Shown piece after piece: positions 4,401 to 40,835 of a DNA stretch of 64,000 bases. How positions within the stretch are numbered: position 1 is the first letter of the stretch; every line of letters starts with the position of its first letter. The DNA lies in the NCBI RefSeq assembly GCF_029892965.1, contig NZ_JARXWN010000002.1, positions 310,001 to 374,000 on the forward strand, in the 5' to 3' direction. The translations under genes and the position numbers were made by a program. This DNA is from Dysgonomonas sp. PF1-14. GTDB taxonomy: Bacteria; Bacteroidota; Bacteroidia; Bacteroidales; Dysgonomonadaceae. The notes below the pieces were generated by a model. The model was not told the origin of the DNA, made no database searches, and was given only the letters and a program-made list of their open reading frames with translations.

Positions 4401-4641
4401 TGAATATAAGGTACTGAACGAAGTGCAAATACTGCAGCCGAAAGGATCGTTTAGCCGTCCCGACAGGGTGATGATAAACAAGGAAGAGGTAATAGTGATC
4501 GACTACAAGTTCGGAGAGAAGGAAGATAAGAGGTATATCCGTCAGATAAAATACTATGCAGACCAAATTCGCAAGATGGGCTATAAAGATGTAAAAGGGT
4601 ATATCTGTTACATCACATTGGGGAAAGTTATTGAGATATAA
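1402..4641 (+). CDS. addA: AddA-like UvrD-family helicase with C-terminal nuclease domain
   Basis: Superfamily 1 helicase-nuclease of the AddA/RecB type, expected to process double-strand DNA ends for recombination. The Walker A ASAGSGKT is at residues 18-25, motif Ia TFTNKA near 50, the Walker B DEFQDTS near 398, GDVKQSIYRWR near 429, TIHKSKG near 753 and YVAFTRA near 830. The C-terminus has a PD-(D/E)XK-type nuclease with GTLMHE near 943 and RPDRVMI...VIDYK near 1020-1034. I start it at 1402 (1079 residues), because that Met follows an AGAAAGAAGGG ribosome-binding site and sits just before the conserved N-terminus; an in-frame ATG at 1357 would add 15 unconserved residues. The AddB partner is not visible in this window. 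Confidence 0.88.
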   Translation: MSNHALFDDEINLQVYKASAGSGKTHRLTAEYLRLLFSAPNAYRHILAVTFTNKATDEMKTRIVAELARLAKGEDSPYTKLLAEEYGYNDEQVKKEARDTLVRVLHDYSAFSVSTIDKFFQQTMRAFTREIGLGGGYNVELDTDKVLGEAIDSMLYDLERSDNKLLLDWLIRFSEEKVENGETWNIRNDIQSLSSEIFKESYKAYSNQVQANIADKQLMTDYKDMLFAIIQTFETRSQQIGEKALNIMTRFGLKPDDFKGGSRSAFFSFLKWANKAIEEPTNTFRTLPDDVTNWYTAKTAADVKDRIESAFTELNVCVSDIITHYDDSRIYQTAYEINRYFFTLGILGDVDRKIRENAAENNMMLISDTTELLNRIIEGNESPFIYEKVGLRVNNYMIDEFQDTSGMQWQNFLPLVRDSLAGGNKNFIVGDVKQSIYRWRNSDWKLLDEQLDIDFRQEGINHETLDTNWRSSRNVIGFNNAIFSIGSHLLQDTYNKPLSDTEDKRLQPFFSRITKAYGELYQQIPDKHKDNEGRVKIEFIDTDEHVWQDYVLEQLPLQIEELQDRGYNLQDIAILVRTKREGADVANCLLEYKSNHPDSKYRYDIISDEALFVGNSKSIKLIIALLKYLHNPLDASLKTLAVFEYFKYNNQLSAEDALQKYFSGNEELPENIAKELDRIRELPLYEMTEEIFELFRNAMEDNEQVYIQSFLDMVLDFTIRSSSDLDAFLKWWNETGVNKTIFTPDGQDAIRIMTIHKSKGLGFNVVLIPFCNWEIDHRLTTILWCHPKTEPFDRLHLVPVKYSQKLKNTIFDYEYFDERLHAFIDNVNILYVAFTRAKNELIAFAPRPKREEINNIASLLWVGANTSSGILAGKQTHIDLPEYLNVESGIFEIGESYIPKLKKEASPLEEIKIDSLSSVSYDDRIGLLLKNKYYFTDSGKRDYGTLMHEIVSKVETLDDIEKALDEYYISGDITAAQKAEIGGLLEDYLSDPVVASWYSGEYKVLNEVQILQPKGSFSRPDRVMINKEEVIVIDYKFGEKEDKRYIRQIKYYADQIRKMGYKDVKGYICYITLGKVIEI

Positions 4642-4815
4642 CCCCAGGGAATGTATAGCTGATACCTACCCGAAGTCTGCATCCGGACTGAGTATTAACG
4701 GAATTTCAGCCAATTTTGACATTTTTAATATACTGATAGTAAACTATTTTACTAAATGTAGCGTTAATATTATGTGTTTTTCATAGTATTAGATTTAAGG
4801 TTAAAAATGAAGATT

Positions 4816-4846
4816 GGTTGTCGGGATGACAACCATTTCTTTTTTA
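4816..4846 (+). terminator. Rho-independent terminator after addA
   Basis: GGTTGTC and GACAACC form a perfect 7-bp stem around a 5-base loop, followed by ATTTCTTTTTT. It lies 175 bp after the addA stop and upstream of the yigZ promoter. It therefore argues that an in-frame extension of yigZ back to 4774 is not translated. Confidence 0.75.
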
Positions 4847-4873
4847 TAAGGATTTATATTTTTGCAAAACTGC

Positions 4874-4881
4874 TATCTTTG
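4874..4881 (+). promoter_or_regulatory. -7 box of yigZ promoter (possible leaderless transcript)
   Basis: TATCTTTG matches TAnnTTTG exactly and ends 6 bp before the ATG at 4888. Transcription in these bacteria usually begins several bases downstream of this box, so the mRNA may start at or almost at the start codon. Confidence 0.6.
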
Positions 4882-4887
4882 TGTTAT

Positions 4888-5487
4888 ATGGAGGATATTT
4901 TCAGAACGATAACAGATGCATCTAAAGCTATCTATACGGAAAAGCGGAGTAAATTTATCGCTTATGCCATTCCTGTGAATACAGTTGAAGAGGCAAAGGT
5001 AGAAATAGACAAACTACGTAAGGAATATTACGATGCACGACATGTGTGTTGGGCTTATATGCTAGGTGCAGACAGGGAGGATTTCAGATCTAATGACGAC
5101 GGAGAACCTTCCGGTACAGCCGGGAAACCAATACTGGGACAGATAAACTCTAATGAACTGACAAATATACTGATCGCTGTCATCCGTTATTTTGGCGGCA
5201 TAAAGCTAGGTACGAGCGGGCTTATTGTCGCATATCGCGAAGCCGCTGCCGAAGCCATTCGGGAAGCCAGTATTGTAGAAAGGACGGTAGATTGTCGTAT
5301 CTCGTTTGCTTTCGAATATCCGTTTATGAACGATGTAATGAAGATTGTCAAAGACCTTGAACCGGCAATTATCACTCAGAGCTACGATATGGATTGCCTG
5401 ATGACGCTGGAAATAAGAAAGGCACGCTTCGAAGAGTTGGTAAGCAGATTGGAGAAGGTGGAAAGTCTCAGATTAATAGACGGTTAA
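4888..5487 (+). CDS. yigZ: YigZ/IMPACT family protein (UPF0029)
   Basis: A 199-residue protein with the N-terminal UPF0029 domain, including KRSKFIAYA, DARHVCWAY and the signature YFGGIKLGTSGLIVAYREA near residues 95-115, plus a short C-terminal ferredoxin-like region. The family is related to eukaryal IMPACT and may regulate translation or bind nucleic acid; its bacterial role is poorly defined. A longer frame opens at 4774, but the sequence before 4888 is unconserved and contains a terminator and the promoter box, so I choose the Met at 4888. It stands alone between a terminator on each side. Confidence 0.88.
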   Translation: MEDIFRTITDASKAIYTEKRSKFIAYAIPVNTVEEAKVEIDKLRKEYYDARHVCWAYMLGADREDFRSNDDGEPSGTAGKPILGQINSNELTNILIAVIRYFGGIKLGTSGLIVAYREAAAEAIREASIVERTVDCRISFAFEYPFMNDVMKIVKDLEPAIITQSYDMDCLMTLEIRKARFEELVSRLEKVESLRLIDG

Positions 5488-22718: not shown

Positions 22719-24884
22719 TTATTTGATTCTACCTTTTTGGTCTACACCCCAAGATCTAACGCATCTGAATCCGATGAACGAGCGTCCTTTATCCTGGAAT
22801 TCAACAGATCTTTCTCCTGATCTTACAGTAGCATCTTTCCATGATCCGCCTTTGATAATCTTGCGTTTCAAGATAGCAGGATCGGACAATACTGCTCTGT
22901 AGCTGAAATCCGGATTAGCTTCATCAGCCATACGGTCTACAGATTCTGTAAATGTAGTAGTTGTCCATTCAGCCATATTTCCGGCCATATCATACAGACC
23001 AAAACGGTTAGGCAGGAATGTAGCAACCGGAGATACTAAATCTTTCAGGTCTTTTGATGCTCTGAAATTAGCATGTGCAAGACCGTCTGTTGTATGAGTC
23101 TGGTTTGAATACCATGGGTAATCAAGTTCTGAACGCCCATTTCTGGCAGCAAACTCCCACTCAGCTTCTGTAGGCAATCTATAACCTTCGAAACCGTCTT
23201 TTTCACAGTTGCCTTCTGATAAGTAACGGTCTGTACGCCATGCACAATAAGCATCGGCAGCCTCCCATGAAACTCCTGCTACAGGGAAGTTATCATAACC
23301 TTTAGCTGTGAAATAATGTTGTGTATATTGTTCACTTTTTGCATTAGCAAAGTCAGTCATCCAGCTCATTACATCCGGATATACATTTACAATATATGTA
23401 TTGGTAAAGTCAACTCTGTCGCCATGAGAATTTCTCGAAAGAGTTTCACGAATGATGTCTCCTCTCATGTTTACATAAGCTGTATCTTTAGTTATTACCA
23501 TCGATTTGGCAACTCCTTCTTTTAGTTTTCCTAAGAATGCATAATAGCTTTTCGAATCGAACCACTCATATTTGTAGTTCAGAGCTGTTACGATCAAGCC
23601 ACTCTTATCGGCAGCATAAGGGTTTCCACCCATAACGCTATTTATAGCAGCAGCTTCTTTAGCTGAAGGATTTTTCCAAGGGATAGATTTACCCCAGTTC
23701 AGACGCTGTATTGTTTGTCCGTCTTTAGTGCGAACAGTTTGTTTATATGAAGCATCACCGCCAAAAGCAGGGTCTGCCATTCTTTCTCTTACTATAGAGT
23801 CACGCACCCAATATACGAATTCGCGATACTGAGCATTTGTCACTTCTGTTTCGTCCATCCAGAAAGGGCTTACTGCAACCAGTTTGCGAGGTACCGAGTC
23901 ACCCCACAAAGGATCAACACCTGTACCCATTTCTATATTACCTCCCGGTATCAACAACATTTTGTCGCAAGCGCGAGCCACATTGTATGGCATAAGCAAA
24001 CGTGTTTCGATAGCCGGGTCAATATATTTCGGATTACCGAATTTATATGTAATACCTAATGTAGCCTGAGCCATACCATTAGAGTTCATATCTCCTTTTT
24101 GATTATCGAATGTATCGTCGATCAGGATAGCTCTACCTTCTGCATATATCTGCCAATTGCGTGTAAAGTTGAATCCTAAGTTCAAACCTCCGCTACCGCC
24201 AAAGAATGTACCGGCAAGAGCTCCATTATGTGCAAGACGTTGATAGATACCAACACCTACAAATGGATTTACTTCAAACTTACGGTTTGGCTTATACCCA
24301 GTCAACAAGTTCAATAAGTTAACCATAGCATCTCCTGTAAGGCTAACATAGCGCAGGTGCTGCATATAGTATACTTGATTGGGCTGCCAACCTTTGTCTC
24401 CCATAGGAGCCCAGATTTTAATACCCGAATCATCAACTTCCCTGTAGCTGAAATCTTTATCTATCTCCCAGCCCATATAGTCCCATTGAGGGTCTCTTGT
24501 GAGCATACCTACCTGAGAGGCATCAGAACCTTGTTTCCAGTAGTTGGTATATGTTCCGCTCCAGCCATCATTGTAGCCATGCAAACTACCTCCCGAGAAC
24601 TGTGCTCGGAGCGAAATGATGTTACTCATACGGCGTCCGATAGAGAATGTCGGAGCTAAAGTTACACGACTCATGAAGCTAGTTCTGTTGCCGGGAACAC
24701 CATTATCATCTTCTCCAAAATACATTTGGGCACCACCACCAATGGAGATAAACCATAGGGGATCTTTTAATAGATATTCATTCCTCGAAGGAACGGAATA
24801 CTGCACAGAACTTTCTGTCTGAGCATAGGATACTATTGACACACAGAGCAATAGTAGTGAAGTTAGTAAAGTCTTTTTGTTCAT
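22719..24884 (-). CDS. gldK: GldK/PorK with fused N-terminal outer-membrane beta-barrel
   Basis: A 721-residue protein made of two parts. Residues 309-715 are the GldK/PorK domain of the formylglycine-generating-enzyme fold: MLLIPGGNIEMGTG, FWMDETEVTNAQYREFV, YRLPTEAEWEFAARNG, NMAEW and KIIKGGSWKD. Before it, residues 41-285 form a barrel-like domain with alternating strands (WFISIGGGAQMYFG, NPFVGVGIYQRL, NWQIYAEGRAIL, AQATLGITYKFGN). PorK and GldK are normally lipoproteins of about 450-490 residues; here there is an ordinary signal peptide ending SYAQ, and the only early Cys (residue 14) is a poor lipobox. It is first in the operon, with a -7 box upstream. No separate PorP gene is seen next to it. 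Confidence 0.88.
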   Translation of the reverse strand: MNKKTLLTSLLLLCVSIVSYAQTESSVQYSVPSRNEYLLKDPLWFISIGGGAQMYFGEDDNGVPGNRTSFMSRVTLAPTFSIGRRMSNIISLRAQFSGGSLHGYNDGWSGTYTNYWKQGSDASQVGMLTRDPQWDYMGWEIDKDFSYREVDDSGIKIWAPMGDKGWQPNQVYYMQHLRYVSLTGDAMVNLLNLLTGYKPNRKFEVNPFVGVGIYQRLAHNGALAGTFFGGSGGLNLGFNFTRNWQIYAEGRAILIDDTFDNQKGDMNSNGMAQATLGITYKFGNPKYIDPAIETRLLMPYNVARACDKMLLIPGGNIEMGTGVDPLWGDSVPRKLVAVSPFWMDETEVTNAQYREFVYWVRDSIVRERMADPAFGGDASYKQTVRTKDGQTIQRLNWGKSIPWKNPSAKEAAAINSVMGGNPYAADKSGLIVTALNYKYEWFDSKSYYAFLGKLKEGVAKSMVITKDTAYVNMRGDIIRETLSRNSHGDRVDFTNTYIVNVYPDVMSWMTDFANAKSEQYTQHYFTAKGYDNFPVAGVSWEAADAYCAWRTDRYLSEGNCEKDGFEGYRLPTEAEWEFAARNGRSELDYPWYSNQTHTTDGLAHANFRASKDLKDLVSPVATFLPNRFGLYDMAGNMAEWTTTTFTESVDRMADEANPDFSYRAVLSDPAILKRKIIKGGSWKDATVRSGERSVEFQDKGRSFIGFRCVRSWGVDQKGRIK

Positions 24885-30147: not shown

Positions 30148-30957
30148 TTATTTATAATATTTTTTATAAATTCGGGCATACTCTCTCGTCTTCTTCACCT
30201 CTTTGATCCAAACATTAAGAGAATCCAGCAGAACCGGAGATTTTTCACTGACAGCCCATGCTTCCAGATGAGTGAATCCAATAAGGGTAGAATAGTCTAT
30301 TTCGGGGATCGAACGGGCAACTCTGGCTGCAACAATCTCATCACAAACAGCATAATCTATTTCTTTGGCTGCGACCATCATAGCCAGTTGTTCCTGCCCG
30401 TAAATAGGGTCTTCTTTCACAAAAATGGTATCGCCAATCTCGTGTGATAGGTTTCTTATGCGTAATATCGCCGGAGAATTTTGCGGGACATACAAGGTCT
30501 TTTTAGCCAGATTGAGGTGGCTTCGCAATGGTTCTGCTCCATCATTATATTCTTTCTTCCGCTGAATCAGCACCTGCCTGTTTTGTGCAACAGGTTCAGT
30601 GAAACGCAGCGAAGTCCTTAATTCGGATGTTACGGGTATATTTCGTGCCATAACATCATACTTCCCTTTTTTCAGTCCATCGATACTTTTATCGAGACTG
30701 GATTCGAGTAATATCTCTATTTCGAATGGGATACGCGATTTAAGAAGCTGTATGAGGTCATGATTGAATCCTGCAATAGTGTCACCCGACACATAGTATC
30801 CGGCGGGATTATAATCGGTAACAATATGCAGCACTCCATCTTCTTCTATCTGCGACAGGTCTTTAGGAGAAGACGTACCTCTGAGAAGAAAGAAAGATAT
30901 TACAGCCAATATAATTATAAGTGCTGAAATGATTATGAAAATCCTTTTCTTCAACAT
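30148..30957 (-). CDS. Membrane-anchored solute-binding protein (SBP_bac_3 type)
   Basis: A 269-residue protein with an N-terminal helix (about 5-25) and no clear lipobox, so it is either anchored in the inner membrane or secreted. The rest is a periplasmic binding protein type 2 fold of the amino-acid/MltF kind: GVLHIVTDYNPAGYY, IAGFNHDLIQLL, GLKKGKYDVMARNIPVT and EQLAMMVAAKEIDYAVCDE. It lacks the lytic transglycosylase domain found in MltF and has no permease or ATPase neighbour. It lies 5 bp after the putative porin gene and is probably translated from the same mRNA. Confidence 0.78.
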   Translation of the reverse strand: MLKKRIFIIISALIIILAVISFFLLRGTSSPKDLSQIEEDGVLHIVTDYNPAGYYVSGDTIAGFNHDLIQLLKSRIPFEIEILLESSLDKSIDGLKKGKYDVMARNIPVTSELRTSLRFTEPVAQNRQVLIQRKKEYNDGAEPLRSHLNLAKKTLYVPQNSPAILRIRNLSHEIGDTIFVKEDPIYGQEQLAMMVAAKEIDYAVCDEIVAARVARSIPEIDYSTLIGFTHLEAWAVSEKSPVLLDSLNVWIKEVKKTREYARIYKKYYK

Positions 30958-30962
30958 ACCCG

Positions 30963-33017
30963 TTAATTATTGAACTGCCACGAGATACCTAATTTAAAGC
31001 CACGAGGATTGATCGGATAACGATACAAAGAGAATGACTCGGCATTTCCCATACCATCGGCCACATTGTACATCATCATAAAGAAGCGTGTATATTTGAG
31101 ATGCAAGTTCAGGTAGGCATTCACCACAGGAAAATTACCGATTTCCATATTTTTCTGGTTATAAAACTGCATAGTGAGCGGCTCATAGCCCGGCATATAG
31201 TATTTTGAATGATAATGTACATCGGCACCAAGCTGCAAAGTAAGCACTTTAGCAATTTTGGTTGTCAGATATATATTAGAATACACACTCAGAGTAGGCA
31301 ATGGAATCACATCCTTATCTCCTGTTACTTGGTACACAACCTGATTATCCCAATGAAAAATCCCTGCCTGAAAGTCTTGGTCGAGCCTGAAAGATACAAC
31401 TTGTACACTACCCGATTTCTGATGAACTAAACGATCAGTTCCATAGTAAATGTAGTCTGTTACATTCTCAACTCCGCCTCTAAGCCTTGTCCTTGAAAAG
31501 GAGAATTCCGGAAAAATAATCTCCCCACCAACATATACTCTTTGGGTATTATTAAAATCTTCATTCCAGTTCCAGTATTTAGATGAAAACGTACGCTGAA
31601 AATAACTCGGACTAATACCTTTAGCATAGGCATTCGCCTTAGCCGATATATTCTTGCCCCACAGGCTAAACATGGTGGTCACCTCTCCTTCGAGCTTATA
31701 ATCGCTATTTATGAAATCAAATTCTCCGGATGCTCGGTATCTCAGGTATTTTCCTTTCTCTTTCGACAATACTCCTCCTATAGTCAGGGAGTTCTCACTC
31801 TCCCTTGTATGCAATCCGGGAAGTCCTCCGGGACGGGAGTATTTTCGCATATCGTACTCAATGAAAGCGGTCAGACCGAATTTGGTCCAATTGCGGAACC
31901 CTTCATTCATAGCAAGTGCCAATGTATTTTTGAAAGAATAGTAAGCCATATAGTCATCTATATAGCCACTATATTTATTTTGCTCGATGATTTCTCCATT
32001 AGCATTCTCTGTCGGTGTAGGTTTATAGAGATCATCCAAACCACTAAATCCGGAAGTTATGCCTCTGCGCTGATCGGTGTAATGCGTAGTTAATATGGCA
32101 CTGGCAAGGGGAATATAGTCTTTCTTTTTACGCAAACCCGTCACACTATCGTTTATCGCATACTCTTCCATATCGTTACCCAAGTCGTAACGATTGGTAA
32201 CATACAGGTGACGTCCACGTATCTTGTTGCGTGTATCCTGCATCCGCGTTGGGATATCCAGTGTATTTCCAGTGTAGCGCACAGCATCAGGATTGAGAAT
32301 ATAAGTGGAATCAGCAATACCTCCATTCTCCAGAATGGTAAAGTTATTGTTATGGAAAAAGGCGTGCATCTTATATTTATCCCCTATGTAACTGGCATAG
32401 AAGTCGTAACTTATTCCCTTGTTAGACTGGGAATTGTAGAATCCACGCGAATAAATATAATCGAAATCGAAACCTACGTTCAGCTTCTTGCCCATATTCA
32501 TAGATAATTCACCCTGAAAGCGTTGCTCCTGCCTTTCGCCCCCGCCTCCGCTTTGGTATTTGATATTGGAGTAAGGCACTTTAGTATTCAGAAACAACTG
32601 ATCTTCCGGATCTTTACGCCACAAATACAAGCCATCCAGAAACATAAATCGTGAAGCTTCGGGACGCTCAAAGAAAATCTTCGATTGAGCAGGCGAACCT
32701 ACATTCCCGAGATATCCCATAGCTACTCCGGCACCATCTACCAGCATACTATTATGGAAGTTCTGAGGCATAGTATCGCGAGGCAGAAATATACGTTCAC
32801 CAAGACGTGGAGTTATTTTCCATGCAAAAATATTAGGAACGACATTTTTTACCGTATCTATTATATTTTTCCCTGTCGGAAAGTTTATTGAATCGAGATG
32901 CAGGGAGTCGATACCCGCAACAGGGGGTGACGTGCGTTGAACTTTAGGCCTGTCCTGAGCATTTACTGCCAGAAAAGACATGGAAAACACAAGAGCTGCC
33001 AGTATATATTTTTTCAT
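30963..33017 (-). CDS. Putative porin (Porin_10-like outer-membrane protein)
   Basis: A 684-residue outer-membrane protein with signal peptide (MKKYILAALVFSMSFLAVNAQ). A long N-terminal part contains FFERPEASRFMFLDGLYLW, then come many amphipathic strands with aromatic girdles and a C-terminus ending GFKLGISWQFNN, as expected for a beta-barrel. It resembles the large putative porins of Bacteroidales. The start at 33017 is chosen over 33035, because a -7 box (TAAGTTTG) lies at 33023..33030, which would place the longer start upstream of the promoter. Substrate unknown. Confidence 0.8.
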   Translation of the reverse strand: MKKYILAALVFSMSFLAVNAQDRPKVQRTSPPVAGIDSLHLDSINFPTGKNIIDTVKNVVPNIFAWKITPRLGERIFLPRDTMPQNFHNSMLVDGAGVAMGYLGNVGSPAQSKIFFERPEASRFMFLDGLYLWRKDPEDQLFLNTKVPYSNIKYQSGGGGERQEQRFQGELSMNMGKKLNVGFDFDYIYSRGFYNSQSNKGISYDFYASYIGDKYKMHAFFHNNNFTILENGGIADSTYILNPDAVRYTGNTLDIPTRMQDTRNKIRGRHLYVTNRYDLGNDMEEYAINDSVTGLRKKKDYIPLASAILTTHYTDQRRGITSGFSGLDDLYKPTPTENANGEIIEQNKYSGYIDDYMAYYSFKNTLALAMNEGFRNWTKFGLTAFIEYDMRKYSRPGGLPGLHTRESENSLTIGGVLSKEKGKYLRYRASGEFDFINSDYKLEGEVTTMFSLWGKNISAKANAYAKGISPSYFQRTFSSKYWNWNEDFNNTQRVYVGGEIIFPEFSFSRTRLRGGVENVTDYIYYGTDRLVHQKSGSVQVVSFRLDQDFQAGIFHWDNQVVYQVTGDKDVIPLPTLSVYSNIYLTTKIAKVLTLQLGADVHYHSKYYMPGYEPLTMQFYNQKNMEIGNFPVVNAYLNLHLKYTRFFMMMYNVADGMGNAESFSLYRYPINPRGFKLGISWQFNN

Positions 33018-33022
33018 CGGTG

Positions 33023-33030
33023 CAAACTTA
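33023..33030 (-). promoter_or_regulatory. -7 box of porin gene (possible leaderless transcript)
   Basis: On the minus strand TAAGTTTG ends 5 bp before the ATG at 33017, so transcription may begin at or next to the start codon. Confidence 0.5.
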
Positions 33031-33114
33031 CACAAAAAATGAAAATTGAGACGTTAATGATTCCTTAAAAACAGGAGAGAAGGCTATTTATTGTATTTAA
33101 ACCCGCATTTTCCA

Positions 33115-34230
33115 TCAGATTACACCTTTGGTAGATGGTAGTTCATAATTGAATATATCCCGCTTTTTAGCCATTTTCAGAGCCCTTGCCAAAGCTTTAA
33201 AGATTCCTTCTATCTTGTGATGTTCGTTTGAGCCTTCTGCTTTTATATTCAGATTCATTTTTGCCGAATCGCTCAGAGATTTAAAAAAGTGAAGGAACAT
33301 CTCGGTTGGCATATCCCCTACCTTCTCGCGATGGAACTCAGCTTCCCATACAAGCCATGGGCGACCGCCGAAGTCGAGTATGGCGGAACACAGACAATCG
33401 TCCATAGGCAGGCTGTATCCGTATCGCTCTATACCGCGCTTGTCGCCGAATGCTTTATGTAATGCTTCGCCCAAAGCAATGGCTGTATCTTCTATTGTAT
33501 GGTGTTCGTCCACATTCAGGTCACCTTTTACTTTTATGGTTAGATCCATACCGGAATGTTTTCCGATTTGTTCGAGCATATGATCGAAGAATCCCAGTCC
33601 GGTAGAAATATCGCAATTACCTTTACCATCAAGATTCAGAGCGACATATATATCTGTTTCCTTAGTAGTCCGTTTGATTTCCGCTTTTCGCTCTCCTGCA
33701 AAAAGGAATTCGCTTACAACATCCCAATCGGTTGTTTGAAGTACACAGATATTTTTTAATTCTTCCGGTACATCCATGTCTTCTCTTAAGAAAATGGCTT
33801 TACAACCCAGATTCTTAGCTAATTCTACATCGGTCATCCGGTCACCTATCACAAAAGAATTAGTCATATCATATTCTTCTGTCATATATTTGCCAAGCAT
33901 ACCCGTACGGGGCTTGCGAGTAGGCGCGTTATCCTCGGGAAAGCTGCGGTCTATCAGGATATCATCAAACGTTATACCTTCTCCTTGTAATGTTTTCAAC
34001 ATCAGATTGTGGACAGGCCAGAATGTATCTTCGGGAAAAGAGGCTGTACCTAAGCCGTCCTGATTGGTAACCATTACAAACTCAAAATCGAGATTCTTGC
34101 GGATGAAATACAGGTTACGGATAACTTTAGGATAAAATTCCAGTTTCTCGAAGCTATCCAGTTGATAGTCTACAGGTGGTTCTATAACTAACGTTCCGTC
34201 ACGATCTATAAATAATGCCCTTTTTTTCAT
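33115..34230 (-). CDS. hisB: Histidinol-phosphatase / imidazoleglycerol-phosphate dehydratase
   Basis: Bifunctional 371-residue enzyme of histidine synthesis. The N-terminal HAD phosphatase (about 1-165) starts with FIDRDGTLV and has VTNQDGLG and the [14 protein letters not shown] motif. The C-terminal dehydratase (about 180-371) has [30 protein letters not shown] and [19 protein letters not shown] with the metal-binding histidines. It is the last his gene in the operon, 42 bp after hisC; the spacer contains the AGTTTACTAGT motif also seen at 55.3 and 57 kb. Confidence 0.95.
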
Positions 34231-34272
34231 TTGATTTTAGTTTACTAGTGTTTAGAGTTCTAGTTTACTATT

Positions 34273-35301
34273 TTATAATTGTTTCAATGTTTCAATCAGC
34301 GTCTTATTCTCCCCATCTGTTCCCACTGTTATACGCAGACAACCTGCACATAGCGAAACAGAATTACGGTTACGAACAATTACTCCTTTGTCAGCCAACT
34401 GTTTGTAAAGGCCATTGGCATCTGCCACCTTTACCAATAAGAAATTAGCATCGGTAGGATATATTTTTTCAACGAAAGATAATTTTGGTAATTCTGTTTT
34501 CAGATAATCACGTCCTTTCAGTAGAATGGAAACCCATTCTTTTCTCAATTCGAGTTTATCCAACTCTTCGCTAACAAAGTTTTGGGTAAGGATATTTACA
34601 TTATATGGGTATTTCACCTTATTGAATAACTTAATTATATCCGGAGATGCGAACGCCATTCCGAGACGGACAGCAGCTAATCCCCATGCTTTGGAGAAAG
34701 TTTGCAGGACAATCAGATTCGGATATTTGTCCAGATCGCCCAGCCATGTGGCTTCGGAAGCAAAATCGATATAAGCCTCATCGACAATGACAATACCGGC
34801 AAATGAATTGAGTATTTTTTCTATTTCTTTTCTGTTCAGCAAATTTCCGGTCGGATTGTTCGGCGAACAAAGGAATATGATTTTTGTATTGTTATCTATC
34901 TTCTCCAGAAGTGTTTGTGCATCCAGATCGAAGTTTTCATTCAGCAATATTTTGCGGTATTCTACATCATTCACATCGGCACACACCTGATACATACCGT
35001 AAGTAGGATCGATGGCGACAATATTATCGGTACGCGGTTCGCAGAAGATACGTATAACGAGGTCGATAGGCTCGTCACTACCATTCCCTAGAAATATTTT
35101 CTCCGGCTCAATATCTTTTATTTTGGCTATTTTTTCTTTCAGCTTCCATTGCAGCGGATCGGGATAGCGGTTGTACTTATCATTCAGTGGATTCTCGTTT
35201 GCATCGAGAAAAACCGAAGCCTCACCTTTAAATTCATCGCGTGCCGACGAATAGGCTTTCATATTCCAGACGTTTTTGCGTACTAATTGTTGTAGGTTCA
35301 T
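34273..35301 (-). CDS. hisC: Histidinol-phosphate aminotransferase
   Basis: PLP-dependent fold-type I aminotransferase of 342 residues that converts imidazole-acetol phosphate to histidinol phosphate. It shows [36 protein letters not shown] and the PLP-lysine region [14 protein letters not shown]. It starts 3 bp after the stop of the Thg1-like gene, so it is read from the same transcript. Confidence 0.95.
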
Positions 35302-35304
35302 TTA

Positions 35305-36063
35305 CTATTTAGATAATATGCTTAGAATCAGATCATAATAACCTTCTTTCAAAGGCAACTCATAATTAATATATAATGTATTTCTTTTGGCAATAACTTT
35401 CTCTCCTGTTTTTGGATTAAAACTTTCCTTATCAGTCTCTTTCCAATAAAAACCGATACCTCTCTTTTGCCATGATGGAAGACCATTAAAATTTATACCA
35501 TAAGAAAAGAGTAATTCGTTTTTATCCGAAATGCTTATCTTCTCTATTCTTTTTGTGGCTTCGCGTTTATTAAAGCCATCTTTACGAAGCGTCCAATAAC
35601 AATGAGCATTCAAAGAATTACGATGTGCGTCTTCGTTGCGCCACCGGAAATAGTCTATCACAAGATTTTTATTAGGAAATGCCGATATGCGGCAATCAAA
35701 TGCGGCAACACCCCCTAAAAGGGTTGAAAACTTGGCACTGGCTTCTCCAGCTAAAATAGAATCAAATTTTCTTATTTTCCGCCCAAAGCTATTTTCATTG
35801 TAATGAAATAGCAAGGATATTTCATCGCTCTGTGTATAACCATATATAACGTTGAAACCACAATTCATCAGATGTTTAGTAGTCTCGACCATATAATCGC
35901 GAAATTTCGGATCGAAAGGAGCTTCAAAATCATACTTCTCTTTTGTCAGCTTTGTAAAACCCCGACCATCTATACGGGCAACAATATACATTTCAGGAAC
36001 AATGCAAATATCCTGAGCAGTTTCATAAACCCGCATTTTCTTATCTAAATCATCAAACTTCAT
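35305..36063 (-). CDS. Thg1-like tRNA 3'-5' nucleotidyltransferase
   Basis: A 252-residue protein of the tRNA(His) guanylyltransferase/Thg1-like (TLP) family, which adds nucleotides in the 3'-to-5' direction to the 5' end of tRNA. The metal-binding motif ARIDGRGFTKLT is near residues 29-40 and YTQSDEISLLF near 76-86. YFRWRNEDAHRNSLNAHCYW is near 138-157 and is typical of the bacterial branch. Its start overlaps the stop of the kinase-like gene by 11 bp, and hisC follows after 3 bp. Bacterial TLPs can repair 5'-truncated tRNAs; whether this one acts on tRNA(His) is unknown. Confidence 0.9.
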   Translation of the reverse strand: MKFDDLDKKMRVYETAQDICIVPEMYIVARIDGRGFTKLTKEKYDFEAPFDPKFRDYMVETTKHLMNCGFNVIYGYTQSDEISLLFHYNENSFGRKIRKFDSILAGEASAKFSTLLGGVAAFDCRISAFPNKNLVIDYFRWRNEDAHRNSLNAHCYWTLRKDGFNKREATKRIEKISISDKNELLFSYGINFNGLPSWQKRGIGFYWKETDKESFNPKTGEKVIAKRNTLYINYELPLKEGYYDLILSILSK

Positions 36064-36499
36064 CGTTCCAGTCTTTTACAATAAAACTCCCGTTCTCTAG
36101 TTCGACATAATATAATTCATCAAAGCCTTCTTCGTATGATGGCAGCTCCAACTTGCTATATGTTGCCCTAAGTCCGACATCTGGTATTCGTTGCTTTCCC
36201 TGTCTGCCTTCATTCCTTGCTAAAGATTCTTCTATCTTAGATTGGAAGTAATAACCGATCAGCTTATATTTTGCGTTTTTAATCTTGCTTATATATTTTT
36301 CCCTATCTGCTTTTGATGGATTTGTATTATCTACAACAAAAGCCTGTTGCGTTTCTATACATAGGTCTATAAAGCGGGATTCTCTGTTTCTGGTTTTCAA
36401 CAAATCCATAGAAATCCGCACATGTGTATGAAAAAACTTTTCTTTATAGAAAGAACTTTTCCCAGTAGCTTGAATTCCACAAAATAAAACAGCTTCCAT
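36053..36499 (-). CDS. Polynucleotide-kinase-like P-loop kinase
   Basis: A 148-residue P-loop kinase. The Walker A CGIQATGKSSF is at residues 7-17, RISMD near 30, the VVDNTNPS strand near 58 and the lid EGRQGKQRIP near 102-111. The ending YSKLELPSYEEGFDEL resembles the T4 PNK-like kinase domain (AAA_33 group). Such enzymes phosphorylate 5'-OH ends of RNA or DNA. I start it at 36499; an upstream Met at 36538 would run through a 12-bp inverted repeat. It overlaps the downstream Thg1-like gene by 11 bp, so the two probably work together. Confidence 0.8.
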   Translation of the reverse strand: MEAVLFCGIQATGKSSFYKEKFFHTHVRISMDLLKTRNRESRFIDLCIETQQAFVVDNTNPSKADREKYISKIKNAKYKLIGYYFQSKIEESLARNEGRQGKQRIPDVGLRATYSKLELPSYEEGFDELYYVELENGSFIVKDWNDEV

Positions 36500-36512
36500 A
36501 GATATATAATAA

Positions 36513-36551
36513 TAGCTACAATAAAATAGTATTGTCAAATTATTGTAGCTA
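36513..36551. repeat. 12-bp inverted repeat before the kinase gene
   Basis: TAGCTACAATAA (36513..36524) and TTATTGTAGCTA (36540..36551) are exact inverted copies with a 15-bp spacer. On the minus strand the stem is not followed by a T-run, so it is more likely an operator, RNA-processing hairpin or insertion scar than a terminator. Confidence 0.7.
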
Positions 36552-36573
36552 CTCCATTTATAATTTCGGTAGA

Positions 36574-37152
36574 TTACAATTCAATTTTCACACCCAATAA
36601 TTTATAAAATTCCCTGAGTATTGCGGGATGTCCCGGCCATGCAGGTGATGTTGTCAGATTTCCGTCTGTTATGGCTTCTGTTGCCGGAATGTCTTTATAA
36701 TTTCCTCCCGCCAGCGTAACTTCAGGACCGACTGCTACATAACAGGTCAGTGTTCTGCCTTTTACAACATTGGCTGCCGTAAGAATCTGTATTCCATGAC
36801 AGATAGCTGCCACAGGCAGATTCTTTTCAAAGAAATATCTGGTGTATTCTATTACTTTAGGATCGAGACGTATATATTCGGGAGCACGCCCACCTGTAAT
36901 ATAAAGTCCTGCATAACCTTCGAGTTTTACACTATCGAAACTCTTGTTGAGTGTAAAATTGTGCCCGCGCAATTCTACATAGGTCTGAAAACCTACAAAA
37001 TCGTGAATAGCTGTAGCGACCTGTTCTCCTGCCTTTTTGCCGGGACAAACTACATCTACACTAAATCCTACACTTACCAATGCCTGATATGGCACCATCA
37101 ATTCATAATCTTCGACAAAGTCGCCTGCCAGCATCAATATTCTTTTACCCAT
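36574..37152 (-). CDS. DJ-1/PfpI family protein
   Basis: A 192-residue protein of the DJ-1/PfpI glutamine-amidotransferase-like superfamily. It has the acidic residue in GDFVEDYELMVP near 11-22, GLYITGGRAPEY near 82 and the nucleophile elbow AICHGIQIL with Cys near 117. Members include deglycases, chaperones and proteases, and the specific activity is not readable here. It lies in the his gene string, with 112 bp before it and 74 bp after it, looser spacing than its neighbours. Confidence 0.88.
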   Translation of the reverse strand: MGKRILMLAGDFVEDYELMVPYQALVSVGFSVDVVCPGKKAGEQVATAIHDFVGFQTYVELRGHNFTLNKSFDSVKLEGYAGLYITGGRAPEYIRLDPKVIEYTRYFFEKNLPVAAICHGIQILTAANVVKGRTLTCYVAVGPEVTLAGGNYKDIPATEAITDGNLTTSPAWPGHPAILREFYKLLGVKIEL

Positions 37153-37264
37153 AATTAAAAACAGATTTTAGAAATTCAACATTCAGTTAACTCTTTAAAT
37201 GTAGTGATAATTGTTAAAATTCAGGATTCTTTTATCTGAAAAATATTTAACAGTCTCTCTACTA

Positions 37265-37711
37265 TTACTTTTCGTAGGTAGTGACCACGAATATTATCAA
37301 CGGCTCGTCTCCGGTATTGATAATGGAATGATAATTGTTATCACCTTGTATAGAGGTTACATTTCCTTTTTTCAGATCGAACTTGCGTGTGATCTTATCC
37401 AGTCCTTCACGTTCGATGTATTCACCCTGTCCATGCACCAATATATAAAGCTCCTGCTCCTTCTTGCTGCCATGCTCGTGAAAACCGGCTTGGTCTCCTT
37501 TGTTCAGCAGTACCATGTATGTGCCGATGCGATTGTTTACAAGTTCCCCTTTTTCGAATATAGAGAGCATATATACTACTCCGTTGCCATCGTACATCGG
37601 ATCGCGCTTCTCTATATCTATAACTGTACGTTGTGGCTTACCGAAAGGAGTTAATGTAATATCAACATATTTTGATACAGTTTCTAATACTTGCTTTTTT
37701 TCGTTTTCCAT
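37265..37711 (-). CDS. Cupin-domain protein
   Basis: A 148-residue single-cupin protein. The first metal-binding motif is near GDQAGFHEHGSKKEQELYILVHGQGEY (two His, one Glu) and the second near NNYHSIINTGDEPL. This suggests a metal-binding beta-barrel with enzymatic or sensory function; the substrate is unknown. It is 11 bp after a GNAT gene inside the his gene string. Confidence 0.8.
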   Translation of the reverse strand: MENEKKQVLETVSKYVDITLTPFGKPQRTVIDIEKRDPMYDGNGVVYMLSIFEKGELVNNRIGTYMVLLNKGDQAGFHEHGSKKEQELYILVHGQGEYIEREGLDKITRKFDLKKGNVTSIQGDNNYHSIINTGDEPLIIFVVTTYEK

Positions 37712-37722
37712 TGTATTGTATT

Positions 37723-38160
37723 TTATTTTAATCGTTTTATCATTTCGTAATGAGGAATCCCTACTTCTGTAAACTGATCGCCTTCTATAGTATAGCCATG
37801 TTTCCTGTAAAAATCGACTGCTACTTTACGGGCATGAAGGTAGAGATATTCAAAATTGCGCTCAGTGGCTACCTGTTCCGAATATTGCAGGAGTTCACTA
37901 CCAAGCCCTTTACCCTGATAAAAATCATCGACAGCCATTTGTCGCAGTTGGATTGTTACCTCTGATATAGGTGTAAGAATACAACAACCTACCATCTGAT
38001 CGGAACCGGGAAAGTATGCTGCCAGCAACAAATCGTTCTTATCCCTCTCTAAATCTTCCTCTGAAAAGCTTATACCGAGAGGTTTTCTAAGGATTTTTGT
38101 CCTCAAAGCTACCATCTGGTCGTATTCAGCAGTTTTATAGCCTATTATTTTAAAGTCCAT
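37723..38160 (-). CDS. GNAT family N-acetyltransferase
   Basis: A 145-residue acetyltransferase. The acetyl-CoA-binding loop is QMAVDDFYQGKGLGSELL near residues 73-90, followed by YLHARKVAVDFYRKHGY near 108-124. It resembles ElaA-like GNAT proteins. Its start overlaps the hisD stop by 1 bp, so it is translationally coupled to hisD. Acceptor substrate unknown. Confidence 0.85.
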   Translation of the reverse strand: MDFKIIGYKTAEYDQMVALRTKILRKPLGISFSEEDLERDKNDLLLAAYFPGSDQMVGCCILTPISEVTIQLRQMAVDDFYQGKGLGSELLQYSEQVATERNFEYLYLHARKVAVDFYRKHGYTIEGDQFTEVGIPHYEMIKRLK

Positions 38161-39437
38161 TATCCTTTCAGTCTTAAAGTTACTGCATTCTTATGTGCAA
38201 ACAATTCTTCATTTTCGGCCATGATTTCGATTGTAGGCCCCAGATTTTTTATTCCTTGCTTTGTGATTCGTTGGAATGTAATCTTCTTGACAAAGCTATC
38301 CAGATTAACCCCGCTATATGCCTTAGCATACCCATTGGTAGGTAATGTATGGTTTGTACCGGAGGCATAGTCACCTGCACTCTCCGGCGTATAATTTCCG
38401 AGAAAAACAGAACCTGCATTTACAATCTGATCGGCAATATCTATATAGTCTGCCGTCTCTATTATCAGGTGTTCCGGCGCATATTGGTTAGTCATATCTA
38501 TAATCTCCTGCTCGTCTCTTAACAATATCAGCTTACTGTTTTGCAAGGCCTTTTCTGCTATTTCGCGGCGAGGCAGTTCAAACAATTGTTTTTCTATCTC
38601 GTGTAGCACTTCCGATATAAACGGCTCACAAGTGGTAGTAAGTATAACCTGACTGTCTGCACCATGCTCTGCCTGTGACAACAGGTCAGCGGCTACAAAC
38701 TGCGGAATAGATGTTTCATCGGCTATCACCTGCACTTCGGATGGCCCTGCAGGCATGTCGATAGCAACATCTTTGAGGCTTACCAGTTGCTTGGCAGCCA
38801 TGACATACTGGTTGCCCGGCCCGAATATTTTATAAACCTGCGGTATAGTATCTGTTCCATAAGCCATTGCCCCGATAGCCTGCACTCCGCCCGCTTTGAA
38901 TATGTGGCTTACTCCTGCTTCTTTTGCTGCAAACAGGATTGCCGGATGTATTTGTCCTTCTTTATTTGGTGGTGAACAGAGAATAATTTCTTTGCAACCT
39001 GCTATTTTTGCAGGAACGGCCAGCATCAATACAGTAGAGAATAGAGGAGCTGTACCTCCGGGAATATACAACCCGACCTTTTCTATGCCAACAGATTTTT
39101 GCCAGCAGCTCACACCCTGAGTTGTTTCTATCTTCTTTGTTTCTGATTGCTGACTGCGGTGAAAAGTTTCGATATTTTGCTTTGCCTGGCGAATAGCGGC
39201 TTTCAACTCTTCTGAAACAAGTTCTTCAGATTCCTCTATTTCAGCCTGAGATACGACCAGAGAGGAAAGCCTGACTTTGTCGAATTTTTCCTCATATTCC
39301 AGAACCGCTTCATCCCCTCTCGCTTTTACATCGGAGAGAATTTTACCGACTGTGTCGTTCAGTGAAGAAGTATCGAAAGTCGGACGTGTAAGGATATTTT
39401 TCCAATCTTTTCGTTCGGGATATATTATAATCTGCAT
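38160..39437 (-). CDS. hisD: Histidinol dehydrogenase
   Basis: Zinc- and NAD-dependent enzyme of 425 residues that oxidises L-histidinol to histidine in two steps. It shows VGLYIPGGTAPLFSTVLMLAVPA, CSPPNKEG, FKAGGVQAIGAMAYGT, KIFGPGNQYV, DMPAGPSEV, DLLSQAEHG and NYTPESAGDYASGTNHTLPT, all family landmarks. It lies 19 bp after a GNAT gene and is followed by another with a 1-bp overlap. Confidence 0.96.
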   Translation of the reverse strand: MQIIIYPERKDWKNILTRPTFDTSSLNDTVGKILSDVKARGDEAVLEYEEKFDKVRLSSLVVSQAEIEESEELVSEELKAAIRQAKQNIETFHRSQQSETKKIETTQGVSCWQKSVGIEKVGLYIPGGTAPLFSTVLMLAVPAKIAGCKEIILCSPPNKEGQIHPAILFAAKEAGVSHIFKAGGVQAIGAMAYGTDTIPQVYKIFGPGNQYVMAAKQLVSLKDVAIDMPAGPSEVQVIADETSIPQFVAADLLSQAEHGADSQVILTTTCEPFISEVLHEIEKQLFELPRREIAEKALQNSKLILLRDEQEIIDMTNQYAPEHLIIETADYIDIADQIVNAGSVFLGNYTPESAGDYASGTNHTLPTNGYAKAYSGVNLDSFVKKITFQRITKQGIKNLGPTIEIMAENEELFAHKNAVTLRLKG

Positions 39438-39456
39438 TTTCCTGAGCTGTTAGTAT

Positions 39457-39984
39457 TTATTTTAGATATTCCCTTTTCAACAAACTATAAATTGCAATAT
39501 CGGTATAGACATTGTCGACTAACAGTTCTCCTTCACGCTCTATACCCTCAATCTGAAATCCAAGTTTTTCCGGTATCCTCCTACTTTTCTTATTCTCTAT
39601 GGCAACTTTGATCTGCACCCGGTTCATATCCATTTCGGTAAAGGCATGTTCGACCAGTTTTTTCACTGACTGTATCATAATCCCCTTACCCTGTGCGTAC
39701 TGCGAAATCCAGTAACCAATCTCGGTTTTATGATTGTCGAAGTCGGTATCTTTATAGCCGACAAGACCAACAAACTGTTCTTTGTAATAAATGGTGAATT
39801 GTTTGTCTGCTGTTTGCAGAACATATTTCACATAGTTCTCGGTGTCTTCGGCACCTTTGGTGGTGTCTACGAATGGCAGCCATTCACGCATATAATCGCG
39901 CTCGCTATCCAGTGTGTTGAATATCTTAAAAATATCGTCTACCGATAAGGGGTATAATACGATATCATCCGATACTTGAATCAT
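39457..39984 (-). CDS. GNAT acetyltransferase, RimJ/RimL type
   Basis: A 175-residue acetyltransferase of the ribosomal-protein N-acetyltransferase-like group. It shows TEIGYWISQYAQGKGIM near residues 88-104 and NKKSRRIPEKLGFQIEGIEREGEL near 128-151, where the family usually has NxxSxxxxEKxGF. The first four bases overlap the end of hisG, so translation is probably coupled. The acceptor could be a protein N-terminus, an amino acid or an antibiotic. Confidence 0.85.
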   Translation of the reverse strand: MIQVSDDIVLYPLSVDDIFKIFNTLDSERDYMREWLPFVDTTKGAEDTENYVKYVLQTADKQFTIYYKEQFVGLVGYKDTDFDNHKTEIGYWISQYAQGKGIMIQSVKKLVEHAFTEMDMNRVQIKVAIENKKSRRIPEKLGFQIEGIEREGELLVDNVYTDIAIYSLLKREYLK

Positions 39985-40835
39985 AATATCATTTTTTCTA
40001 TTGGTAACACAATTATTCCTTCTGCGCCGGAAGCTTTCAGTTTACTTATCACTTCCCAAAAACGCTTGTCTTCCACAACCGACTGTACAGAGCACCAGCC
40101 TTTGGTAGCCAATGCTGTAACAGTAGGGCTGCGCATACCCGGCAAGATATCAAATATTTCGTCAAGTTTATCTTCCGGTGCATTCAAAAGTACATATTTT
40201 TTTCCTTCTGCATTCTGTACTGCTTCTATTCTGAATATAAGTTCTTCAAGAATGGCCTTTTTTTCTTCCGGCAAGTCAGGAGTAGCAATCAGTACCGCTT
40301 CGGACTGCATTACAACTTCCACCTCTTTGAGGCGGTTGCTAACCAGTGTTCCGCCCGAGCTGACAATATCGAAGATAGCATCCGAAAGACCTATACTGGG
40401 TGATATTTCTACCGATCCTGTTATGATGTGAATATCTGAACTAATATTCTGTTCTTTAAGATATTTATTTAAGATGTGTGGATAAGATGTCGCTATCTTT
40501 TTCCCGTTAAACCATTCTACACCTTCGTATTTTTCGTCTTTAGGTATGGCAAGTGACAGACGGCATTTACTAAAACCAAGCCGTTTTATAATATCGGCTA
40601 CCTCTTCTTTTTCCCTCAGTTCATTCTCTCCTACTACACCGATATCGGCTACACCTGTAGCTACCGCCTGCGGTATGTCGTCGTCTCTCAGAAATAGGAT
40701 TTCGACCGGAAAATCTTTAGCGGGGATAAGTAGTGTGCGCTTTATATTATTCAGCCGGATACCGGCTTCTTGCAAAAGAGCCATTGTTTCTTCAAATAGT
40801 CTGCCTTTAGACTGAACTGCAATTCTTAGTACCAT
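39981..40835 (-). CDS. hisG: ATP phosphoribosyltransferase (long form)
   Basis: First enzyme of histidine synthesis, 284 residues, joining ATP and PRPP. It shows LRIAVQSKGRLFEETM, RDDDIPQAVATGVADIGVVGEN and the PRPP loop region IITGSVEISPSIGLSDAIFDIVSSGGTL near 135-162. The C-terminal 75 residues are the ACT-like regulatory domain that binds histidine (KKYVLLNAPEDKLDEI...GMRSPTVTALA). The gene follows the His leader and attenuator by about 30 bp. Confidence 0.95.
   Translation of the reverse strand: MVLRIAVQSKGRLFEETMALLQEAGIRLNNIKRTLLIPAKDFPVEILFLRDDDIPQAVATGVADIGVVGENELREKEEVADIIKRLGFSKCRLSLAIPKDEKYEGVEWFNGKKIATSYPHILNKYLKEQNISSDIHIITGSVEISPSIGLSDAIFDIVSSGGTLVSNRLKEVEVVMQSEAVLIATPDLPEEKKAILEELIFRIEAVQNAEGKKYVLLNAPEDKLDEIFDILPGMRSPTVTALATKGWCSVQSVVEDKRFWEVISKLKASGAEGIIVLPIEKMIL

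Follow-up and report, generated by a model that had tools for sequence, protein, structure and literature searches.

A barrel–GldK fusion gene and a second K–N pair at the gldL–gldM locus of Dysgonomonas

The fusion gene and its neighbourhood

The window analyzed here is a stretch of 64,000 nucleotides from the genome of Dysgonomonas sp. PF1-14 (G000). It contains an ORF, designated Kf, in which a signal peptide and a predicted barrel precede a GldK/PorK domain. The genes gldL and gldM follow, and then a gene, designated Nf, for a short and divergent paralog of GldN/PorN (Table 1). A pyruvate:ferredoxin oxidoreductase gene is located just upstream of Kf.

Table 1. Coordinates of Kf, its parts and its operon partners, in nucleotide positions of the window or in residues of Kf.
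Feature	Position	Strand	Remark
Kf, barrel–GldK fusion ORF, 721 aa	22719..24884	-	
Signal peptide of Kf	residues 1-22		
Predicted 8-stranded OmpA-type barrel of Kf	residues 44-282		
Conserved linker of Kf	residues 283-307		
GldK/PorK domain of Kf	residues 308-711		TIGR03525 match
N-terminal barrel half of Kf (residues 1-300)	23985..24884	-	homologous to sister-lineage barrel+OmpA proteins
Leu602 codon of Kf	23079..23081	-	position of the PorG-reactive cysteine (PorK Cys356, RGCF motif)
Cys306 codon of Kf	23967..23969	-	linker
Cys560 codon of Kf	23205..23207	-	InsV
gldL/porL, 321 aa	21688..22653	-	
gldM/porM, 522 aa	20074..21642	-	
Nf, 288 aa	19108..19974	-	divergent short GldN/PorN paralog, accompanies Kf

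The GldK/PorK domain proposed in the initial annotation scored 367.3 bits with the NCBIfam model TIGR03525, above its curated cut-off of 350, while the two GldJ models reached 95-96 bits. The N-terminal half was predicted to fold as an eight-stranded barrel, in agreement with the barrel that had been claimed for it. Pfam scans at E up to 1 gave no match in Kf to PF11751 (PorP/SprF) or PF00691 (OmpA domain). NF052316 (PorG) likewise had no match in Kf at E up to 1, whereas the PorG of the same genome scored 216 bits against a cut-off of 130. A sequence search with the Kf barrel profile matched no solved structure. In the AlphaFold2 model of full-length Kf the K domain was of low confidence and unusable, which ruled out fold comparison with that model.

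Kf shares with GldK/PorK, the subunit of the T9SS PorKN ring or gliding track, the elaborated FGE/SME-type domain including most of InsH, and it likewise has L, M and an N as operon neighbours. It differs in having an N-terminal barrel in place of the lipobox. Duplicated K- and N-type subunits have precedents in GldJ and, in F. johnsoniae, GldO, which are described as paralogs of GldK and GldN, respectively, in the accessible text of PMC9143113 and PMC9127263. GldJ, a GldK paralog of the T9SS and gliding machinery, is a lipoprotein, unlike Kf, and its models matched Kf far below the GldK model.

The GldL of the window has a low-complexity stretch rich in Gly, Ser and Val between its membrane part and its coiled-coil part, and among the loci of the genus GldL measured 234 to 335 aa. 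A Porin_10 protein (PF14121, 690 aa) and a 269-aa protein are encoded upstream of the fusion, at 30151-33035 (-). In genome G006, ORFs resembling this pair by eye only lie directly 3' of gldM (L071:5009-8012). Genes that by eye resemble HisB, HisC, HisD and HisG, apparently for histidine biosynthesis, occupy 33115-40835 (-) of the window, with other genes interspersed.

Distribution of Kf and origin of its barrel

The search covered 101 genomes: 25 of the genus (G000 to G024, the window's included), 36 others from the family and 40 from the order. Of the 25 genus genomes, 20 contain a complete Kf ORF, and one more, G013, has a fragment of it at a contig edge. No fusion occurred among the matches listed for the 76 other relatives, a list that omits weak matches only. 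The fusion reported in the initial annotation is thus a real gene with 20 homologs of complete ORF. These homologs, zero internal stops and low dN/dS where computable ruled out an assembly or frameshift artefact. The Kf of G008 has 678 aa and is without about 55 internal residues. The genus genomes without Kf were G001 (51% complete), G004 (71%), G006 (99%) and G016 (98%), and on the contig of G004 an oxidoreductase fragment is directly followed by gldL, with no Kf at the L-M locus. As G006 and G016 are near-complete and have no Kf, and G004 has none beside its L-M genes, Kf is dispensable for whichever T9SS these strains may have.

Among the named carriers of the fusion are D. hofstadii DSM 104969 and Dysgonomonas sp. 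521, 511, BGC7, ZJ279, Marseille-P4677 and Marseille-P4361, and several fusion records are MAGs titled Prevotella sp. A search of named records yielded 27 loci, 16 with barrel and K in one complete ORF, 10 with the barrel without K, and one (L096) with no complete ORF. In a class-wide draw of 149 genomes, the only listed above-cut-off matches longer than 600 aa were the window's Kf (731 aa in that search) and one frame in G119 (685 aa). The latter locus (L171, G119:C18:33000-42000, ORF 3126-5162, +) encodes an oversized GldK of 678 aa with a lipobox-like start and an internal insert, in the usual gene order P-K-L-M. Neither a barrel–GldK fusion nor a second K-N pair of Dysgonomonas was described in the literature surveyed, which consisted of titles and opening abstracts and barely covered subscription papers and preprints.

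Both halves of Kf are under purifying selection where this could be computed. Seven genome pairs were compared. The barrel half, computable in 5 of them, had a dN/dS of 0.04-0.18, and the K half had 0.03-0.08 in all 7, against 0.01-0.03 for canonical K. Since dS exceeded 1 in many of these pairs, the values are rough.

The gene order Kf-L-M-Nf was found in all 20 genomes with a complete Kf ORF. In non-genus relatives, P-K-L-M-N stood together in 5/5 loci of a first set and in 19/20 of a second, the remaining one (L167) being K-L-M-N. Within the genus the arrangement was either P-K-N plus Kf-L-M-Nf, or P-K-N plus L-M alone (G006 and G016). In G004, gldL is immediately preceded by a gene similar by eye to the window's oxidoreductase; in G016 a few small ORFs separate the two, and in G006 L-M is located elsewhere. 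Kf and Nf look like genes that flank the L-M locus at one genomic site. The simplest history would be that the operon was duplicated, that one copy lost L-M, and that the other lost P while its K gained the barrel.

Phylogenetic analysis placed the Kf sequences and the Nf sequences each in a single clade (100/100 support). Both clades have long stems, so their exact attachment points are uncertain. In the M-gene tree and the concatenated tree (18 genomes with Kf plus 8 other rows, the concatenated set being without G007, G008 and G013), G006 and G016 branched inside the genus beside the Kf-bearing G023 with weak support, and the test against all Kf holders forming one clade gave a p-AU of 0.044. 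A history with the Kf-less genomes as the oldest branches was mildly disfavoured by this placement and p-AU value. Either a gain on the stem with one loss or a later gain of Kf may account for its presence.

The barrel has relatives outside the fusion. Proteins of 465-497 aa from sister lineages carry a homologous barrel, 35-42% identical to the window's, with an OmpA domain at the C-terminus. Such barrel+OmpA proteins are encoded by D. capnocytophagoides, D. macrotermitis and D. alginatilytica, among others. Their signal peptide is similar to that of Kf by eye, and where they have the peptidoglycan-binding PF00691 domain, Kf has the GldK domain. PF00691 was above the cut-off in 8/8 sister-genus proteins scanned (L037-L042, L044, L045) and in 9 of the 10 barrel relatives scanned. 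The tenth, from G006 (L043:5959-7950, +), is a 663-aa protein whose OmpA match and C-terminal TPR match were both below the cut-off. At more than 300 bits, the barrel profile matched Kf in 21 genus genomes (the G013 fragment included) and a barrel without K in G006 and eight sister-genus genomes; G016 has none. Each genome with a strong match has one, that of G036 (7% contaminated) being on two contigs. In the tree, Kf barrels and other barrels formed two fully supported groups. The homology, the single strong match per genome and the tree groups make it most likely that the barrel came from an OmpA-type protein, whose peptidoglycan-binding half would have been exchanged for a GldK domain.

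Two other sources of the barrel were not supported. PorP, whose gene precedes porK in the ancestral operon, is disfavoured by the missing PF11751 match and by the homology to the barrel of the OmpA-domain protein instead. A captured PorG is disfavoured by the lack of a family match and by the existence of a separate PorG gene. An hhalign match to PorG (probability 92%) covers only 80 columns of low-diversity profiles and is of a kind that any two small Bacteroidota barrels might give.

Two K-N pairs, one motor and the lost membrane attachments

A canonical porP-porK-porN locus (L036) is present in the window's genome at G000:C2, about 208.0-211.6 kb, with its K gene about 122 kb from Kf. It encodes a PorP of 316 aa, a PorK of 478 aa with a lipobox and a PorN of 370 aa, and gldL and gldM are absent from it. 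A canonical K is also encoded in 19 of the 20 genomes whose Kf ORF is complete, and 19 have a canonical N in addition to Nf. PorP was found in 20 of the 21 genomes with any Kf, the contig-edge fragment counted. G007 (88% complete) was the exception in each case: Kf-L-M-Nf was found, with Nf as its only N, and PorP, canonical K and canonical N were undetected. Full-length GldM was single-copy in 22/25 genus genomes, with a fragment in G004 and none found in G001 and G013. GldL was present as one ORF each in 23/25 (none found in G001 and G013), and SprA was found in 25/25, one per genome apart from G004 and G008, where parts of it lie on two contigs. The T9SS sorting domain TIGR04183 was detected at 8 places in G000 at E up to 0.001. 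With GldL, GldM and SprA each found once, the two K/N pairs go with one motor, and the typical cell has one translocon, one motor, two K genes and two N genes.

Because this genome also encodes the canonical set, Kf is to be seen as a paralog that takes the place of neither PorP nor the normal ring. The initial annotation was correct that no PorP gene flanks the Kf operon. Its suggestion that the barrel stands in for PorP is contradicted by the PorP gene about 122 kb away and by the PorP genes of nearly all fusion genomes, a co-occurrence that the annotation itself had named as evidence against it. The PorK-PorN ring that the barrel was thought to anchor would not be the only one either, since a lipidated PorK and a second PorN are encoded at the same distance. 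The system is therefore not a ring without PorP. Besides a normal P-K-N set there is a second K-N pair, carried on a barrel, and both would use the sole T9SS motor found.

Frames of 341-372 aa that match the last third of GldM only (about 330-521, 40-51 bits, below the cut-off) were observed at G000:C1:96445-96981 (-) and on G011:C10, G020:C380 and G024:C58. They possibly encode a protein with the periplasmic tip of GldM and without the motor part.

The accessible text of PMC12635249 (Nat Commun, November 2025) describes PorG, a predicted eight-stranded outer-membrane barrel, and SprF as disulfide-bonded to GldK Cys343, which corresponds to PorK Cys356 in the conserved RGCF motif, and the PorKN ring as a moving mini-track. 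Kf was compared with 47 canonical K proteins, 22 from the genus and 25 others. A lipobox-like motif was present in 47/47 canonical K vs 0/20 Kf, and to this extent the earlier proposal that the barrel takes the place of the lipid anchor was upheld. The RGCF cysteine, kept in 22/22 genus K and 25/25 other K, is Leu in 20/20 Kf, the motif reading DGLA in the window's Kf. Two domain cysteines, 547 and 708 in the numbering of the window's Kf, are kept in 20/20 Kf. Judged by its sequence, Kf has lost both known outer-membrane attachments of GldK.

PorG is encoded as a separate gene in 24/25 genus genomes. In the 20 genus sequences read, its tail carries Cys-Pro-Cys in 17 and C-x-x-C in three (G006, G016 and G023). 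Two tail cysteines are thus kept in 20/20, and the disulfide link between canonical K and PorG should still operate. Among the PorG sequences read (L131-L150, L127, L129 and L130), Cys-Pro-Cys occurred only in fusion genomes, the G013 fragment included, and a single tail Cys in three sister-genus sequences.

As the fusion is without the PorG-binding cysteine, the PorG link, and not PorP, is the closer functional parallel of its barrel; PorG, the known outer-membrane barrel partner of PorK, had been left out of consideration in the initial annotation. Like the barrel of Kf, PorG (NF052316) is a small, predicted eight-stranded outer-membrane barrel covalently tied to a K-type subunit, as far as the available text of PMC12635249 describes it. 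The tie is a peptide bond at the N-terminus of K in Kf and a disulfide at the RGCF loop in PorG, and PorG remains a separate gene in the genome, where Kf has no match to the PorG model. In P. gingivalis, cross-links of PorG to PorK Lys39 (near the N-terminus), Lys480 and Lys483 (near the C-terminus) and to PorN Lys321 are given in the accessible part of PMC4980022, according to which PorK/N was accompanied by rather little PorG. By analogy with the Lys39 cross-link, a barrel at the N-terminus of Kf would sit near the place of PorG. The linker of Kf spans about 25 residues vs 28 residues from the lipid-bearing Cys to the core in the K of the window's genome.

Interface residues and the proposed role of Kf and Nf

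The K-K and K-N contact residues given in the accessible text of PMC12421860 were mapped onto Kf and Nf. One of the 37 listed positions, F264, mismatches the letter of the structure and was left out, and Asn244, listed for both contacts, was counted as K-K. At the K-K contacts, 5/25 positions keep in Kf the majority residue of canonical genus K vs a background of 197/422 (47%); in columns conserved in canonical K the numbers were 5/22 vs 170/300 (P 0.0009). The K-N contacts were kept in 6/10, which is the background level (P 0.30 for enrichment). The retained residues are Trp47, Asp198, Glu383, Ser384, Tyr398 and Lys419, and R328, F334, E342 (deleted) and D391 are changed. Nf in turn keeps Arg30 (18/20; Lys in 2), Trp47 (20/20) and Asp220 (18/20); the pair Asp198 of K and Arg30 of N is called especially critical for K-N binding in the available text of the same source.

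VR3 has five fewer residues in 20/20 Kf; in the ring, this region holds the C-terminal PorN loop. The N residue that docks there, 271, is Trp in 21/21 genus N, and Nf has Tyr, Asp, Ser or Thr instead, so that by these residues one K-N contact is altered on both sides. At K-K site 2, the InsH residues Leu181, Asn182 and Asp184 are deleted in 20/20 Kf. The loop of this site is lost in 20/20 Kf, complete or nearly so in genus K, and partly missing in 2-7 of the 25 K from other genera. Nf stops short of position 278, and PorN Trp278 is also unconserved in canonical genus N. Since this loop and Trp278 vary in canonical proteins as well, neither loss alone says much. Asn236 of the PorN-PorN contact is deleted in 20/20 Nf. 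Asn244, Ala245 and Glu248 of VR2, which docks into the pocket of the next subunit, are kept in Kf. On balance, these contacts fit a Kf-Nf pair that diverged together, and polymerisation of the Kf unit through the canonical ring contacts appears less likely.

We favour, with somewhat more confidence than doubt, the interpretation that Kf and Nf form a barrel-tethered K-N unit on the T9SS motor, in which a peptide bond takes the place of the lipid and the disulfide of known systems. The barrel of Kf would fix it in the outer membrane, and Kf would pair with Nf. It is encoded with the only GldL-GldM motor of the cell and probably engages that motor. Whereas canonical K, a lipoprotein, binds the PorG barrel through a disulfide, Kf would carry its barrel by a peptide bond, having dropped the lipid and the PorG-binding cysteine. 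With the ring-forming K-K contacts changed, Kf alone probably builds no normal 33-unit ring and would more likely stand beside, or at the edge of, the canonical PorKN ring or track. Its role might be to pass motor force to the outer membrane or to tether the motor to it. Some results weigh against this interpretation: the K-N contacts are kept at background level only, Kf is dispensable in G006, G016 and G004 for whatever T9SS is present, and the K domain of the AlphaFold2 model was of low confidence. Architecture, distribution, gene order, copy numbers, cysteine losses and contact residues are results at the sequence level, from which outer-membrane insertion, the pairing of Kf with Nf, motor coupling and the role are inferred.

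It may tentatively be added that one proton-driven GldLM motor serves two outer-membrane K-N assemblies of one cell, the lipidated PorKN ring with disulfide-attached PorG and an assembly in which an outer-membrane protein and a track subunit are one chain, although we regard this extension as rather doubtful. If true, the second assembly would be the first known membrane client peptide-bonded to the moving T9SS track. Kf resembles a natural experiment on the barrel-to-track link, since a barrel has been joined to K while neither the lipid nor the reactive cysteine is left. A comparison of strains with and without Kf would bear on the function of this link, on the need for track movement in the membrane and on whether two assemblies could run on one motor.

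Alternatively, Kf and Nf might form a complete second ring in which each subunit bears a barrel, and a single motor set would then drive both kinds of ring. This is unlikely, but several observations agree with it. Kf and Nf are each a single clade and co-occur in 20/20 genomes, the change on both sides of the K-K contact could represent a new, self-specific contact, and the canonical K of some other genera must form rings without the full site 2 loop. The PorKN ring is 33-fold and 45-54 nm wide in the available text of PMC12421860, which would leave space for a small barrel on each subunit. The deletions of Leu181, Asn182 and Asp184 in every Kf and of Asn236 in every Nf argue against such a ring, and any replacement contact would be hypothetical.

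An edge or minor subunit of the canonical PorKN ring, adding a permanently attached barrel besides PorG, appears a weaker candidate. Part of one K-K side, the three VR2 residues, is kept in Kf, and the low PorG amounts in P. gingivalis (PMC4980022, accessible part) make a minor barrel-bearing subunit sensible; however, the pocket side and site 2 are changed, and Nf would need to co-assemble with N. Still less probable is that Kf left the T9SS as a structural outer-membrane protein, the successor of the barrel-OmpA protein, with its GldK-type domain doing something unrelated. In favour of this, the barrel has its homolog in an OmpA-domain protein without a strong match in Kf genomes, and the PorG-binding motif and several ring contacts are gone. 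Against this stand the linkage of Kf to GldL, GldM and Nf in 20/20 genomes and the one Kf-Nf contact changed on both sides with Asp198 and Arg30 retained (contacts from the available text of PMC12421860). The model of the initial annotation, in which the barrel replaces lipid anchor and PorP in fixing the PorK-PorN ring, agrees with the lost lipobox and the absence of PorP from the operon flanks but is highly improbable with canonical K and PorP encoded alongside Kf and a barrel that has no PorP/SprF match in the Pfam scan.

One further difference from canonical K concerns two cysteines, Cys306 in the linker and Cys560 in InsV. They are both present in 16/20 Kf and both absent in the other four (G002, G007, G021 and G023), a co-occurrence that comprises few independent events, with 1-2 usable pairs and no significance. 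Canonical K has no cysteine at these columns (32 rows; L029 repeats G028). A disulfide between the two, specific to Kf, could possibly staple the linker to the K head.
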